From Corallococcus macrosporus DSM 14697 (GTDB lineage Bacteria > Myxococcota > Myxococcia > Myxococcales > Myxococcaceae), in NCBI RefSeq assembly GCF_002305895.1, contig NZ_CP022203.1, positions 6,544,001-6,608,000 on the forward strand: 64,000 nucleotides of DNA, given 5' to 3'. Position 1 is the first letter of the stretch; the number at the start of each line of letters is the position of its first letter. Under the pieces are notes generated by a model. That model did no database searches. It was not told the DNA's origin and worked only from the letters and a program-made list of their open reading frames with translations. Position numbers and translations under genes: made by a program. Below, piece by piece: positions 9,564 through 41,204 of this stretch.

Positions 9564-10316
9564 TCAGGCCCAGACCGTCTCGCTGCCACCCACCAACGTA
9601 CCAATGTCCCCGTCACCCAACACCGCGCGGCGGATGTTGCCCCGCTGCGTCAGGTCGAACACGATGATGGGCAGCTTGTTGTCCATGCACAGCGAGATGG
9701 CCGTGGAGTCCATGACGTTGAGATTCTGCTTCAACACGTCCATGTACGTCAGCGACCGATAGCGCCGCGCGTTGGGGTCCTTCTTCGGGTCCGCGCTGTA
9801 CACCCCGTCCACCTTGGTCGCCTTGAGGATGACCTCCGCGTTGATTTCCATGGCGCGGAGGGAGGCGGCGGTGTCCGTGGTGAAGTACGGGTTGCCGGTG
9901 CCCGCCGCGAAAATCACGACGCGGCCCTTCTCCAGGTGGCGCACCGCGCGCCGGCGGATGTACGGCTCGGCGATCTGCTCCATCTTGATGGCGGACAGCA
10001 CGCGCGTGTGCAGGCCCTTCTTCTCCAGCGCGTCCTGCATGGCCATGGAGTTGATGCAGGTGGCCAGCATGCCCATGTAGTCGGCGCTGGCGCGGTCCAT
10101 GCCCTCCGTGGCGCCCGCGACGCCCCGGAAGATGTTGCCGCCGCCAATCACCAGGGCCACCTCCACCCCGGCCTGCGACAGCTCGATGACTTCCTCGGCG
10201 ATGCCCATCAGCGTGGGCGGATGGATGCCGTACTTCCCCTCCCCCATCAGGGCCTCGCCCGAGAGCTTGAGGAGGATGCGCTTATACGGGAGCGGCTTCT
10301 TCGTGTCGGAGGACAT
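9564..10316 (-). CDS. pyrH: UMP kinase
   Basis: A 250-residue amino-acid-kinase-fold enzyme that phosphorylates UMP to UDP in pyrimidine nucleotide synthesis. Family motifs are complete: [14 protein letters not shown] for phosphate binding, [24 protein letters not shown], the [13 protein letters not shown] loop binding UMP, and [13 protein letters not shown]. The bacterial enzyme is a hexamer regulated by GTP and UTP. The gene lies directly upstream of frr and is separated from tsf by about 220 bases holding a strong hairpin, so pyrH-frr is probably its own transcription unit. Confidence 0.97.
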
Positions 10317-12316: not shown

Positions 12317-12700
12317 GTCGTCTCTCCGGTTGTTCCGCCACGCCCGAGCAAACCTTCCGGCCGAAACGCCCGGAGGAGGAGTCCCTCTCCGCGAGGAGAG
12401 GCCCCCACCCACGGAGGCACCGGCGACCGGCACGGACGTGTGTGTAGTGGGTGCTGCCTGGGGTGAACCACCCCCGACCCCATACCGTGGGGCGGGGGGT
12501 CCTTAACAGAACCCCTCCGGGCCGCGCAAGCTTCGCCGCACCGCCCGTCCGGGCAGGGACGGCGCGTGCCGCTCCCCCGCCCTGCCGCCGTCCCAGCCAG
12601 CCCCTGGGCCGGGCTGGAACGGCACCGGCGCGGGGCCTCCCCTCCCGGGTTGGCGCCGCGCCGGCGTCCTGCACGGTGCGTCCGTCAGGCTGCCCGCGTC
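12317..12700. other. Non-coding gap between secA and rpsB
   Basis: This 384-base gap must hold the end of the secA transcript and the promoter and leader of rpsB. A nested GC-rich inverted repeat at 12476-12501 (GACCCC with GGGGTC, enclosing CCCC and GGGG) could be a leader or operator structure. I could not identify a convincing -35/-10 pair, and no protein-coding frame stands out. Confidence 0.5.
12587..12623 (-). terminator. Hairpin downstream of secA
   Basis: Twelve-base arms GCCGTCCCAGCC (12587-12598) and GGCTGGAACGGC (12612-12623) pair with a single mismatch. The structure lies about 78 bases beyond the secA stop on the minus strand. There is no U tract. Confidence 0.4.
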
Positions 12701-15523
<2,823 letters not shown>

Positions 15524-35994: not shown

Positions 35995-36840
35995 TCAGCG
36001 CTCGCCCCAGTGGAGCTTCTGCCGGAGGATGGAGAAGTAGGCCACCTTCGGGTTGCGCACCAGGTTCACCCGGTTGGGCGAGCGCACCACCTCGATGCAG
36101 TCCCCGCCCTGCAGCCCGTGGCCCGTCTGCCCGTCGATGGTCAGGTACGTGTCCGCCGTCTCACTGCGCAGCGTCACCCGGATGGTCCGGTCCGCGGGCA
36201 CCACGATGGAGCGCTGCGTGAGCGCGTGCGAACAGATGGGCGACAGCACCGTGCAGTCCACGGACGGGTGGACGATGGGCCCGCCCGCCGACAGCGAGTA
36301 CGCCGTGGAGCCGGTGGGCGTGGCCAGGATGACGCCGTCGGACTTGTAGGTCGTAATCGGCACCCCGTCGATGGCCGTCTCGTGGTCCGCGATGCGCGCC
36401 AGCGCGCCCTTGTTGATGACCACGTCGTTGAGGACCTCGTCCTCGATGAGCACCCGGCCCCCGCGCAGCAGGCGGCAGGTCAGCTTCATCCGCGAGTCCA
36501 CCTGGAAGCGCCCCGCGAGCACCTGCTCCAGCATGGGGTACAGCTCTTCCACCGGGACTTCCGTCATGAAGCCCAGGCTGCCCAGGTTGACGCCCAGAAT
36601 CGGAACCCCGCGGCCGCCCAGCAGGCGCGCCGCGTAGATGAGCGTGCCGTCACCGCCCAGCACCACCATCAGGTCCGCCCGGGTCACCAGCTCCCGGTCA
36701 TCCACCCGCGGCCAGCCCAGCGCATGGGCCAACGTGCGGTCGGCCAGCACCGAGAGGTGGGGGTACCGCTCACGGATTTGAGCCGCGAGCGCTACCGCCT
36801 CGGGCTTGTCCCTCTTCGCGACGATTGCCAGGGTCTGCAC
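35995..36840 (-). CDS. nadK: NAD kinase
   Basis: A 281-residue enzyme that makes NADP from NAD and ATP. Diagnostic motifs are present: the GGDGT signature in LMVVLGGDGTLIYAARLL, GVNLGSLGFMTEV, LNDVVINKGALARI, YKSDGVILATPTGSTAYSLSAGGPIV and the C-terminal LTIDGQTG. GTG 36840 is taken as the start since VQTLAIVAKRD begins the fold; the frame extends further upstream without a better start. It lies 75 bases downstream of the sigma-54 response regulator gene, and a small hairpin (CTGAC-acac-GTCAG, 36906-36919) overlaps that gene's stop. Confidence 0.95.
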   Translation of the reverse strand: MQTLAIVAKRDKPEAVALAAQIRERYPHLSVLADRTLAHALGWPRVDDRELVTRADLMVVLGGDGTLIYAARLLGGRGVPILGVNLGSLGFMTEVPVEELYPMLEQVLAGRFQVDSRMKLTCRLLRGGRVLIEDEVLNDVVINKGALARIADHETAIDGVPITTYKSDGVILATPTGSTAYSLSAGGPIVHPSVDCTVLSPICSHALTQRSIVVPADRTIRVTLRSETADTYLTIDGQTGHGLQGGDCIEVVRSPNRVNLVRNPKVAYFSILRQKLHWGER

Positions 36841-36915
36841 GCAACCCCGCCTTCTAGTCCAGGAGGGCCCCGGGCGCGCATGGGAAATGCCCGGGTGCCC
36901 GCCTGCTGACACACG

Positions 36916-38373
36916 TCAGGACGCGGCTTCCATCGCCTCCGCGTCTTCCGCCTGCGCCACGCGGGGCTTCATGGACCGGCCGGCCACCTCGTACTGCTTG
37001 AGCAGACGGCGGAAGTTGGAGCGGTCCACGCCCGCCGCGCGCGCCGCGCTGGAGACGTTCTGGTTGTTCTTCTCCAGGAGGGCGGACAGGTAGCGGCGCT
37101 CGAAGGCGCGCATCGCCAGGCGCTTGGCCTGGGCGTACGGCAGGTGTGCCAGGCTGAACACCTCCACCGTGGAGTCCGGCTGCGGCGCGGACTGGAAGCC
37201 CGGCGGCAGGTCCTCCACGTCGATGACGTCGTTGCCCGTCAGCACCACCGCGCGCTCGATGACGTTCTCCAGCTCGCGCACGTTGCCCGTCCACCGGTTG
37301 CAGGTGAGGGCCTCCATGGCGCGCGGGGAGATGCCCGTCACCTTCTTGTCCGCCTTGGACGCGTACAGCTTCAGGAAGTGGTGCGCCAGCAGCGGCACGT
37401 CCTCCGGCCGGTCGCGCAGCGGCGGCAGGTCGATGGTGATGACGTTGAGCCGGTAGAAGAGGTCCTCGCGGAACTTGCCCTGCTCCTTGGCGCGGGACAG
37501 GTCCACGTGGGTGGCGGCGATGACGCGCACGTCCACCTTCACCGGCTCGTTGGCGCCCACGCGCTTGACTTCCCCCTCCTGGAGCACGCGCAGCAGGCGG
37601 ACCTGGGTGGCCGGGGGCACGTCGCCAATCTCGTCCAGGAAGATGGTGCCGCCGTCGGCCGCCTCGAAGAGGCCCTTCTTGTTGCCGGTGGCGCCGGTGA
37701 AGCTGCCCTTCACGTGGCCGAACAGCTCGCTCTCCAGCAGCGTCTCCGTCAGCGCCGAACAGTTGACCGCCACGAAGGGCTTGTCCTTGCGCGCGCTGCG
37801 GTAGTGGATGGCGCGGGCCACCAGCTCCTTGCCCGTGCCGCTCTCACCCTGGATGAGCACCGTGGCGGTGGAGTGGCTCACCGTCTCCACCAGCTTGAAG
37901 ACGGAGCGCATCTGCGTGGACTGGCCGATGAGGTCCTCGAACTGGCTGCGGACCGTGAGGGCCTCCTCCAGCGCGCGGGTGCGGTCCTTGAGCGCCTTGC
38001 GCTCGGCCGCCTTGGCCACCGTGAGGCTGACCTCGTCGATGTTCTCGAAGGGCTTGGTGAGGTAGTCGTACGCGCCCGCCTTCACCGCCTCCACCGCCGT
38101 CTCCACGGTGGCGAAGGCCGTCATCATGATGACCTCCACGTCCGGGCGGTCCGCCTTGATGCCGCGCAGCAGGTCCATGCCGGACAGGTTGGGCATCTTG
38201 ATGTCGAGGACGACCACGTCGATGGTGGGGTCCTTCGCCGCCGTCAGGCCCTCCACCGCGTCGTCAATGGCCACCACCGGGTGGCCCTCGCGCTGGAGAA
38301 TCTGCGTCACGGCCTTGAGGACGACGGAGTCGTCATCCACGACGAGGACTTTGGCGCGCTTGACTTGGTTCAC
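36916..38373 (-). CDS. NtrC-family sigma-54-dependent response regulator
   Basis: A 485-residue transcription activator with three domains. Receiver, residues 1-120: DDD at 13-15, phospho-acceptor Asp57 (VVVLDIKMPNLSG) and Lys in YLTKPF. AAA+ domain, about 145-380: Walker A GESGTGKELVARAIH, the sigma-54 contact loop GSFTGA at 223-228, FLDEIGDVPP, and NRWTGNVRELENVIERAV. Fis-type helix-turn-helix at the C-terminus (NQNVSSAARAAGVDRSNFRRLLKQY). It overlaps the kinase gene upstream by four bases (ATGA). The pair resembles HsfA/HsfB of Myxococcus xanthus in domain order, which I cannot confirm here. A sigma-54 promoter and palindrome array upstream suggest autoregulation. Confidence 0.93.
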   Translation of the reverse strand: MNQVKRAKVLVVDDDSVVLKAVTQILQREGHPVVAIDDAVEGLTAAKDPTIDVVVLDIKMPNLSGMDLLRGIKADRPDVEVIMMTAFATVETAVEAVKAGAYDYLTKPFENIDEVSLTVAKAAERKALKDRTRALEEALTVRSQFEDLIGQSTQMRSVFKLVETVSHSTATVLIQGESGTGKELVARAIHYRSARKDKPFVAVNCSALTETLLESELFGHVKGSFTGATGNKKGLFEAADGGTIFLDEIGDVPPATQVRLLRVLQEGEVKRVGANEPVKVDVRVIAATHVDLSRAKEQGKFREDLFYRLNVITIDLPPLRDRPEDVPLLAHHFLKLYASKADKKVTGISPRAMEALTCNRWTGNVRELENVIERAVVLTGNDVIDVEDLPPGFQSAPQPDSTVEVFSLAHLPYAQAKRLAMRAFERRYLSALLEKNNQNVSSAARAAGVDRSNFRRLLKQYEVAGRSMKPRVAQAEDAEAMEAAS

Positions 38374-39971
38374 GGCAACCTCTCGAGCTGCAGGGGGATG
38401 GGCAGAAAAACGGTGAAGCAGGAGCCTTGGCCGACCTGGGTGTCCACGTGGAAGCTGCCCCCGTGGTCCTCGACGATGCGGTACGCGATGGAGAGCCCCA
38501 GGCCGGTGCCTTCACCCGGGGCCTTGGTGGTGAACGACGGCTCGAAGATGCGAGGCAGGTGCTTCTCCTCGATGCCCGTGCCGGTGTCCGTCACCGCGAA
38601 GTAGCAGCGGTCGCCTTCGCGACCCGTCACCAGCGTCAGCTTGCCCTCGCGCGCGGGCAGCGCCTGGAGACCGTTCTGCAGGAGGTTGAGCACCACCTGC
38701 GCGAGCTGGCCGGGGTCGCCGTACACCTTCGGCAGCTCCTCCGCGAGCCCCACCGACAGCTCCACCGTGGGCATGGACTTGAGCTGCGCGCGGAACAGCA
38801 CCGCCGCGTCCTCCACGCACTTGGACAAATCGAAGGGCCGCCGGTCCTCCACGCGGCTGTGGCGGCTGAACTTGAGGAGGCTCTCCACGATGCGCTTGCA
38901 GCGCAGCGCGCTCTCCTCGATGAGCCCCAGCGACTCCAGGTCCGCCTCGCTGCGGCCCGCGTCGCGCGACATGAGCTGCGCGAAGGCGAGGATGCCGCCC
39001 AGCGGGTTGTTGATTTCGTGCGCCACGCCGCCGGCGAGCTGGCCCACCGCGGCCATCTTCTCCGTCTCGATGAGGCGCCGGGTCATCGACTGCTCCTCGG
39101 TGACGTCCCGGTAGGTGCACACGACGCGCTCGTCCCCCGCCATGGGGTAGGCGGCCACCACGAAGGTGCGCCCGCCCTGGCGGACCTCCCCGCGCGCGCC
39201 CTTGCCGCTCTCCACCGCCGCCGGCAGCGGGCAGCCCGTGCACGGCTCGTTGCGGCCGAAGAGGTAGCGGTAGCAGGTGGTGTCGGAGGGAATCTCTTCA
39301 ATGGAGCGCCCCGCCACGTCCGCGTACGCCAGGTTGGCCCGCCGCACCGCGAAGTCCCGCGCGCGCACCACGCACAGCGGCGTCTCCATGCAGTCGAACG
39401 ACAGCTCCCACTCGCGCTTGGCCTGGCTCAGCATGCGCGTGCGCTGGGCGACGCGCTCCTCCAGGTCCGCGTTGAGCAGCTTCAGCTCCGCGTTCTGCGC
39501 CTGCGTCACCGTGTAGAGCCGCTCGTTCTCCGCCTGGAGCGCGTACTGCTCGAACGCGCTCTTCACCGTCAGCACCAGGTGGCTGTCGTTCCAGGGCTTG
39601 GAGATGAAGCGGAAGATTTCCGACCGGTTGATGGCCTCTTCAATGGCCTGCTGGTCCGCCTGGCCCGTCAGCATGATGCGCTGGGCCCGCGGCTGCTGCT
39701 GCTTCACCCGGGTAAGGAAATCGACGCCATTCATCCCCGGCATGCGGAAATCGGAGATGACGACCTCGGGGCGGAACGCCTCCACCGCCCGCAGGCCCTG
39801 CTCGGCGTCCGTCGCCGTCTCGATGTCCCAATCACCGCGGCGCAGCACCCGGCGGATGGACTTGAGGATGTTCTCCTCGTCATCCACCAGGAGCAGCCGC
39901 CCGCGCGGCGCTTCGGCCTCGCGGGGCGCTTCGGCCTGCTGACCGTGGACATATGCGGCTTGAGAACCCAT
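38370..39971 (-). CDS. Hybrid histidine kinase with N-terminal receiver and Cys-containing PAS-like domain
   Basis: A 533-residue soluble kinase. Residues 24-140 form a receiver (acidic DDEE, Asp74 in VVISDFRMPGMNG, Lys in FISKPW). A coiled coil spans about 145-185, then a PAS-like domain (about 190-290) with a conserved cysteine pattern, CYRYLFGRNEPCTGCPLP (Cys233, 244, 247), that may bind a metal or sense redox state. The HisKA domain has AAVGQLAGGVAHEINNPLGG (His318), and the ATPase domain has NLLQNGLQAL, DTGTGI and GEGTGLGLSIAYRIV. No membrane segment, so the signal is cytosolic. It is cotranscribed with the sigma-54 regulator, its probable partner. Confidence 0.92.
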   Translation of the reverse strand: MGSQAAYVHGQQAEAPREAEAPRGRLLLVDDEENILKSIRRVLRRGDWDIETATDAEQGLRAVEAFRPEVVISDFRMPGMNGVDFLTRVKQQQPRAQRIMLTGQADQQAIEEAINRSEIFRFISKPWNDSHLVLTVKSAFEQYALQAENERLYTVTQAQNAELKLLNADLEERVAQRTRMLSQAKREWELSFDCMETPLCVVRARDFAVRRANLAYADVAGRSIEEIPSDTTCYRYLFGRNEPCTGCPLPAAVESGKGARGEVRQGGRTFVVAAYPMAGDERVVCTYRDVTEEQSMTRRLIETEKMAAVGQLAGGVAHEINNPLGGILAFAQLMSRDAGRSEADLESLGLIEESALRCKRIVESLLKFSRHSRVEDRRPFDLSKCVEDAAVLFRAQLKSMPTVELSVGLAEELPKVYGDPGQLAQVVLNLLQNGLQALPAREGKLTLVTGREGDRCYFAVTDTGTGIEEKHLPRIFEPSFTTKAPGEGTGLGLSIAYRIVEDHGGSFHVDTQVGQGSCFTVFLPIPLQLERLP

Positions 39972-39994
39972 GAATTGTTTCCGCCCCTAGACAA

Positions 39995-40012
39995 ATGCAA
40001 TGGCCCTGCCAG
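39995..40012 (-). promoter_or_regulatory. Sigma-54 (-24/-12) promoter of the kinase-regulator operon
   Basis: Read on the minus strand the element is CTGGCAGGGCCATTGCAT: the invariant GG and GC are separated by exactly ten bases, and it agrees with the YTGGCACG-N4-TTGC consensus at nearly all positions. The predicted transcript start is about 14 bases before the kinase ATG at 39971. Confidence 0.72.
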
Positions 40013-40078
40013 CAGAAACTCCCTGCCCAACAGTCTGGAATCACGGGCCTTGACATTTCCACGGCGTGAAACAACACA

Positions 40079-40140
40079 GGGTCCAATTAGACCCATCCCT
40101 ACCAAATGGGTCAAGACAGACCCCGGGTCTTTGACCCGGG
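40079..40140. promoter_or_regulatory. Enhancer-like array of GGGTC/GACCC palindromes
   Basis: Two copies of GGGTC-N6-GACCC (40079-40094 and 40108-40123), centred 29 bases apart, and a third GGGTC-N3-GACCC (40125-40137), lie 65-130 bases upstream of the sigma-54 promoter, the usual position for binding of NtrC-type activators. The third copy is part of an 8-bp hairpin, CCCGGGTC-ttt-GACCCGGG (40122-40140), that could also terminate the cyclase gene ending at 40141. Confidence 0.6.
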
Positions 40141-41076
40141 CTAGGGGCCGGGCGGGCCCACGGGGAGCTGGGGATGCAGGCAGATGCGATCTCTCCCGTC
40201 CCGCTTGGCCTGGTAGAGGGCCTCGTCCGCCGTCAGGAGGAGCTGCTCCGGGGTGAGGACGGTGCGGTGGGGGAAGCTGGAAACCCCCAGGGACGCGGTG
40301 ACTTGCAGGCCGTCCTCCACCTCCAGCCGCAGGGCGCGCAGCTCACGGCGCACCCGCTCGGCCACGGTGAGCGCCCCGGTGAGGTGGGTGCGGGGCAGCA
40401 GCACCGCGAACTCCTCCCCGCCATAACGGGCCACCAGGTCCGTCTCGCGCACGCCCCGGGTGAGCGCGGCGGCCACCTCGCGCAGCACGCCGTCCCCGGC
40501 GGAGTGGCCGTACTTGTCGTTGATTTCCTTGAAGTAATCCAGGTCCAGGAGGATGAGCGACAGGGCGTCATCGTAGCGCTGGGCCCGGCGGAACTCCTCG
40601 CGGAGCCGCTCCTGGAAGTGCCGGTGGTTGTGCACCCCCGTCAGGCCGTCCGTGGAGGACAGCCGCTGGAGCTCGCTCACCTGGGTGGCGAGCGCCTCCA
40701 TCCGGGCCTGGGCGGCCAGGGCACGATGCACCCGGGCCAGCAGCTCATCCGGCGCCCATGGGTCTAAAACGACCTCAGCACCGCGCCGCAGGGCCTCCAG
40801 CCAGAGCCCCCGAGGCTCAGGTGGGGCCAGGAGCACCACGGGCGGACCCACCGCCCCATCCCCGGGCATCAGCCGCTCGAGCAAGCCCAGGCTCGCCTGG
40901 GCGTCCTCCCCCGGGCACAGCACCACCAGGGCCACCTCCCGCGCCAGTCTCGGCACCTCCGGGCCGTGGGCGGTGATTCGGAGGGCGAAATCCTCCGGGC
41001 CCAGCGCGCGGGCCAACCGAGGCAACGTCGACTGCGAGTCGTCCACTACCAGCAGGGTGAAGGGCCTGGAGTTCAC
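40141..41076 (-). CDS. Diguanylate cyclase with degenerate receiver domain
   Basis: A 311-residue protein. The N-terminal receiver keeps the acidic pair (Asp12, Asp13) but has Cys54 where the phospho-acceptor aspartate should be, so phosphorylation is unlikely. A short coiled coil leads into an intact GGDEF domain: STDGLTGVHNHRHF, LLDLDYFKEINDKYGHSAGD and the active-site GGEEF at 219-223. The product-inhibition site RETD (210-213) is five residues before it. It should make c-di-GMP from two GTP with feedback control. The start is GTG 41076 with GGGGAC upstream. It lies upstream of, and codirectional with, the kinase-regulator operon. Confidence 0.9.
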   Translation of the reverse strand: MNSRPFTLLVVDDSQSTLPRLARALGPEDFALRITAHGPEVPRLAREVALVVLCPGEDAQASLGLLERLMPGDGAVGPPVVLLAPPEPRGLWLEALRRGAEVVLDPWAPDELLARVHRALAAQARMEALATQVSELQRLSSTDGLTGVHNHRHFQERLREEFRRAQRYDDALSLILLDLDYFKEINDKYGHSAGDGVLREVAAALTRGVRETDLVARYGGEEFAVLLPRTHLTGALTVAERVRRELRALRLEVEDGLQVTASLGVSSFPHRTVLTPEQLLLTADEALYQAKRDGRDRICLHPQLPVGPPGP

Positions 41077-41204
41077 AGTGTCCCCGCAAAATGGTGATTT
41101 CACGGTAGCACAGGCGTGCGACGGAGTGCGACCCCGATTGGACAAAAAACCGGATTCTCTGCTAGCGAGCCCCAACTCCGCAGGTCCGCTCATCGAGGTC
41201 CGCA

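Follow-up and report, generated by a model that had tools for sequence, protein, structure and literature searches.

The window, i.e. the whole stretch of 64,000 nucleotides of Corallococcus macrosporus DSM 14697 analysed here, carries on its minus strand a two-gene regulatory operon. The intergenic stretch before it (39972-40140) runs from the stop codon (40141-40143) of an upstream GGDEF (diguanylate cyclase) gene on the same strand (40141..41193) to the ATG of a kinase gene at 39971. Domain matches identify the kinase (38370..39971; 533 aa) as a hybrid histidine kinase with an N-terminal receiver followed by HisKA and HATPase_c. The end of its gene overlaps by 4 bp the next one (36916..38373; GTG start), which encodes an NtrC-like response regulator and sigma-54 activator with a receiver, an AAA+ domain holding GSFTGA, and a Fis-type HTH. 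The regulator scores 245 bits against PF00158 and 22.3 bits against PF02954 (cut-off 22) and, with its GSFTGA loop, has the features of a bacterial enhancer binding protein. Only 3 bp further downstream lies a NAD kinase gene (35995..36912, minus strand), possibly a member of the same operon by co-transcription.

Judged by its sequence, this operon is hsfBA, the published Myxococcus phosphorelay: one operon encodes first a kinase with an N-terminal receiver and then an NtrC-like regulator, and M. xanthus HsfBA has the same two proteins in the same order. The available part of PMC9109919 describes HsfB as a receiver-first kinase and gives, as a published result, that HsfB phosphorylates HsfA. 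Compared with the proteins of M. xanthus AM003 (genome G074, identical over 3 kb to our locus L018), the window's HsfB is 96% identical and its HsfA is identical at 477 of 485 positions; the NCBIfam scan named neither above its curated cut-off. The suppressor and mutant-screen positions given for M. xanthus in the accessible text of PMC9109919 (HsfB Q98 and Q177; HsfA T288) are all three matched in AM003, which has Q, Q and T there. In the window proteins HsfA T288 is present and HsfB residues 98 and 177 are R, owing to a shift in numbering (533 aa versus 527 aa). As an aside, a record titled Comamonas sp. KCTC 72670 (L021) holds an hsfB that is 95% identical and has a Myxococcus-type promoter, so that either its name looks wrong or its assembly contaminated.

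Three elements of the intergenic stretch, all on the minus strand, are of immediate interest. Just before hsfB lies the -24/-12 sigma-54 element TGGCAGGGCCATTGCA (39996-40011), recognised as a pattern match and by its fixed distance to the palindromes in relatives; it has one mismatch to TGGCAC-G-N4-TTGCW and the correct GG-N10-GC spacing. Upstream of it are a proximal palindrome GGGTCTAATTGGACCC (40079-40094) and a distal one GGGTCTGTCTTGACCC (40108-40123), both exact copies of GGGTC-N6-GACCC, conserved, and proposed here as HsfA sites. They are 29 bp apart from centre to centre, and 67 bp separate the end of the proximal palindrome from TGGC. An earlier note on this DNA, made from the letters, had reported a near-consensus -24/-12 element before the kinase gene and two such palindromes 29 bases apart; both are indeed found where it had located them. 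No sigma-70-type promoter match occurs in 39900-40300. Single sites are unremarkable at the prevailing G+C: the window has five palindromes at up to one mismatch versus 6.3 in shuffles, and about two matches to the -24/-12 pattern alone are expected per window. The pair with a gap of 12-15 bp was found once in the genome of 8,973,512 bp (control, 0 matches), and the strict composite of a palindrome with a -24/-12 element within 30-90 bp likewise once, as was its reversed control pattern. Unlike the single sites, then, the arrangement as a whole (close pair, composite and conservation in the family) is remarkable and beyond chance.

An HsfB orthologue (E <= 1e-120) is present in 55 of 57 family genomes, one of which has a second copy that is 70% identical. 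Allowing spacings of 28-31, the palindrome pair was recovered with up to three mismatches in 20 positions at 50 of the 56 hsfB copies, versus none in 1120 dinucleotide shuffles of the same regions; these family counts are not independent, the sequences being related. Three copies have no mismatch, 24 have one, 17 two and 6 three; the remaining six, with 4-9 mismatches, are the one paralogue, the copies from both genomes of a genus with small genomes, and three more. The spacing within the pair is 29 bp in 43 of the 50 copies and 30 bp in 7. TGGC follows the end of the proximal palindrome at 62-67 bp in 38 of them, at 74-75 bp in nine and at 54 bp in one; for two no distance is assignable. Such steps of about 10 bp, or one helical turn, would keep the sites in helical register, which is what looping predicts. 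The same promoter picture was seen in 42 relatives. Sites and spacing are retained while the intervening sequence diverges. All 37 activators encoded next to hsfB in these 42 loci (five have no such gene in the stretch) share an identical HsfA recognition helix, GVDRSNFRRLLKQYEV. No such pair was present upstream of any of 37 more distant kinases taken as control, where the best total was 6-11 mismatches.

Between the palindromes and the -24 region the window has a conserved mid-element, CGTGATTCCAGACTGTTG (40028..40045, minus strand), whose GTGATT does not vary across an alignment of 14 sequences from Myxococcus, Pyxidicoccus, Citreicoccus and Corallococcus. It resembles an IHF site, scored here against what we take to be the IHF consensus, although the match in the window is weak (2 mismatches). 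Scoring was done on the 51 of 56 promoters with a TGGC-N7-TTGC match, leaving out the paralogue and four copies that lack a good pair: 17 of the 51 have an IHF-like site with at most one mismatch, versus 3.8% of base shuffles, and in nine it is exact. In the clade with the longer spacer a perfect IHF-like site sits at a fixed position. A putative IHF site is thus supported only in part, i.e. for some of the family. In a similar place, loci L028, L029 and L040-L042 carry strong inverted repeats with differing arms (for example TCACGAGAG/CTCTCGTGA and CCGGGTG/CACCCGG). A covarying inverted repeat between palindromes and -24 was considered and set aside, since it was visible by eye in some genera (for example L028, L029, L040) and not in others, and gave no consistent structure.

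The earlier note had also proposed the palindrome as a means of finding the rest of the regulon, and this held in part: coupled to a -24/-12 element, the strict form recovers no promoter but its own in the window's genome, and the relaxed form GGTC-N6-GACYC also finds that of the pilus-tip operon pilY1.1. Exact GGGTC-N6-GACCC occurs four times in this genome, twice at hsfB. The other two copies (C1:3336263 and C1:7020856) were rejected as regulon members for want of a suitable -24/-12 element downstream; the latter lies inside a long open reading frame. The former (C1:3336263-3336278; L001:1501-1516) is an exact, fully self-complementary palindrome, GGGTCCTGGGGGACCC, about 30 bp before an open reading frame. 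The motif is scarce in the window's genome, with four exact copies versus about 45 expected from base composition, and 251 at up to one mismatch versus 1564 for the reversed pattern. The strict composite gave 89 matches in 57 genomes, versus 30 for the reversed pattern, and 40 of the 89 are at hsfB. The other 49 were not retained as a regulon: the recurrent groups inspected were lineage-specific lipoprotein promoters or sequence resembling conserved coding sequence. Among these genomes, four from two genera (L116, L117, L141, L142) show a palindrome-like site together with a -24/-12 element, then TTGCTCA, before the gene for a repeat-rich secreted lipoprotein.

The motif was relaxed to GGTC-N6-GACYC after inspection of the pilY1.1 promoter, and recovery of that promoter is therefore not an independent discovery, while the absence of other matches is independent. 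In 25 Myxococcus genomes the relaxed composite gave 34 matches. Of these, 21 lie at hsfB, while the other 13 belong to pilX1, in the pilY1.1 operon, or to a pilX1-like copy; no other promoter was found, and the pattern read backwards gave one match. Thirty of the 34 were made into loci, where translation confirmed 19 hsfB and 10 pilX1, and L286 adjoins a pilX1-like match; the remaining four were assigned by position or sequence. One recurrent group from the relaxed search of the family (four genomes, two genera) resembles the terminal part of a coding region and was left aside. Neither Lon gene of the window's genome has a promoter site better than 2 mismatches or a convincing -24/-12 element; one of them should be lonD, reportedly a published HsfA target from the work of Ueki and Inouye in 2002. 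Matches in the window's genome at hsfBA and one pilus-tip operon only suggest that a sigma-54 regulon of HsfA with strong sites would be very small.

The pilus-tip operons connect these sites to published data. According to the available part of PMC9109919, purified HsfA alone shifts promoter fragments of pilY1.1 and pilY1.3, pilY1.2 is not bound, and in a strain deleted for hsfA expression of pilY1.1 falls and that of pilY1.3 rises. Within 200 bp of the start codons of pilY1 themselves no site has fewer than 3 mismatches, and we therefore read the published pilY1 promoters as those of the operons. The pilY1.1-type operon of the window's genome (C1:456000-474000; L201) encodes a pilX-like protein, a small CxxCH TfcP-like protein, a DUF4114 PilY1 and pilins; TfcP marks cluster 1 in the accessible portions of PMC8833165 and PMC13190605. 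In its promoter, AGGTC-N6-GACTC precedes AGGCACGACATTTGCC by 61 bp. At 13 of 26 pilY1.1-type loci of the genus the palindrome is present (up to 2 mismatches), each time exactly 77 bp, start to start, from the -24/-12 element; the other 13 have no palindrome at that threshold, and nine of these keep a -24/-12-like element. The pilY1.3-type operon of this genome (L202), with a VWA-type PilY1 (weak Pfam VWA match), has GGGTCTGTTCGGACTC upstream, and the palindrome occurs at 9 of 12 genus loci. No -24/-12 match at up to 2 mismatches was found at the pilY1.3-type promoter, and the other three loci have no palindrome at the threshold used. In the genome of M. xanthus AM003 all three promoters (hsfB, pilY1.1 and pilY1.3) have their site. 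From these promoters the candidate HsfA motif is RGGTC-N6-GACYC.

Taken together, the hsfBA promoter is very probably an autoregulated sigma-54 promoter at which active HsfA raises expression of its own operon via the palindrome pair. The suggestion of the earlier note that the operon's own GSFTGA activator is tied to the sigma-54 promoter and the palindromes is supported by the conservation described above and by recurrence of the layout at HsfA-activated pilY1.1. HsfB phosphorylates HsfA, as published, and HsfA dimers would bind both palindromes at about -95 to -138, where the half-sites are 11 bp apart, or one helical turn; we infer that it is here that HsfA contacts the DNA. Neighbouring dimers on the pair, 29 bp apart, would assemble into an AAA+ oligomer. 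The intervening DNA would then presumably loop back, with bending at the mid-element as a probable aid, and the GSFTGA loops would open sigma-54 RNA polymerase at TGGCAGG-N4-TTGCA. At PhsfB, HsfA would in this way activate rather than merely occupy the promoter, so that hsfBA goes up by positive feedback. The pilY1.1 operon, which has this site in this arrangement too, would be driven likewise.

The palindromes might instead act as RNA hairpins that terminate or attenuate the transcript of the upstream GGDEF gene, and not as protein sites. Two terminator-like matches were found, at 40079-40094 (the proximal palindrome) and at 40122-40140, and the region 40100-40160 folds somewhat better than shuffles (z -1.9). 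A protein site is nevertheless indicated by half-sites that stay exact while their flanks diverge, by the fixed spacing of 29-30 bp and by recurrence at the pilY1 promoters, which makes the hairpin reading very improbable for the pair and leaves it for the third repeat only. This third inverted repeat, CCCGGGTCAAAGACCCGGG (40122-40140, minus strand), consists of CCCGGGTC-AAA-GACCCGGG and contains the palindrome core GGGTCAAAGACCC (40125-40137, minus strand; N3 spacer). The third palindrome of shorter spacing in the earlier note is thus present, but its half-site spacing differs, and it may terminate transcription of the gene upstream. In Myxococcus, Pyxidicoccus and Corallococcus the repeat is kept, with an invariant left arm and a right arm that varies; the three Archangium-type sequences compared do not have it. 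It may be a terminator-like hairpin of the GGDEF gene, additional half-sites, or both.

Other readings accept the palindromes as protein sites and differ in the protein or in its effect. A second activator, for instance MXAN4899, could occupy the sites in a hetero-oligomer with HsfA or be the main protein bound there. To go by its title, a 2012 paper by Volz et al. reports that enhancer binding proteins form hetero-oligomers. Both HsfA and MXAN4899 bind natural-product promoters according to the available part of PMC7910581, but the shift of pilY1.1 and pilY1.3 fragments by purified HsfA alone (PMC9109919, accessible text), an operon that carries only HsfA, and the invariant recognition helix all speak for HsfA itself, and we regard the involvement of a second activator as unlikely. 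Slightly less probable still is that HsfA binds the palindromes mainly for negative autoregulation while another activator drives the -24/-12 element. Such a role has its precedent at pilY1.3, where HsfA is published as a repressor that binds the promoter (PMC9109919, available part) and where the palindrome stands without a -24/-12 element. At hsfB, however, the pair leaves the promoter itself free and sits upstream of -24 at a distance that suits an activator, and its spacing changes by one turn; moreover, pilY1.1 with the same layout is activated, and no other conserved upstream site of comparable strength was seen at hsfB. Positive autoregulation by HsfA remains our preferred reading of this promoter.

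Binding of HsfA to its own promoter has already been proposed in print: the legend of Fig 3E in PMC9109919, in the part available, aligns putative HsfA binding in PhsfB with a consensus. That part of the paper does not contain the word "sigma", nor does it describe the sigma-54 promoter at hsfB and pilY1.1, the tandem pair, or the family-wide conservation. Our literature search, with most subscription papers outside its coverage, likewise gave no earlier description of either a sigma-54 promoter or a pair of palindromes at hsfB. The layout resembles NtrC-family sigma-54 promoters that have upstream activator sites in pairs, for instance those of the M. xanthus Nla28 and EBP cascade, which also combine upstream activator sites with -24/-12 elements and include activator genes among their targets. 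The Nla28 half-site CT(C/G)CG(C/G)AG (PMC7910581, accessible part) is, however, unlike GGGTC-N6-GACCC of the hsfB promoter.

For the published effects of HsfA, which raises pilY1.1 and lowers pilY1.3, the positions of the sites permit a mechanistic hypothesis at the level of single bases. Tentatively, and with rather less confidence than in the autoregulation of hsfBA, the palindrome may act according to context. Where a -24/-12 element follows 61-67 bp downstream (hsfB, pilY1.1) it would serve sigma-54 activation, and without one (pilY1.3) the same dimer could exert plain repression; a palindrome lacking a sigma-54 promoter would suit direct repression. A self-amplifying HsfBA would then be a switch from one type IV pilus tip adhesin to another. 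Both pilY1 operon promoters further have a second inverted element, CGCA-N4/5-TTGCGAGG, at 21 of 26 pilY1.1-type and 6 of 12 pilY1.3-type loci (L201 ~10010-10045, i.e. G000:C1 ~466010-466045; L202 ~12690-12740). It abuts the palindrome at pilY1.1 and is possibly the site of another regulator common to the two pilus-tip operons.
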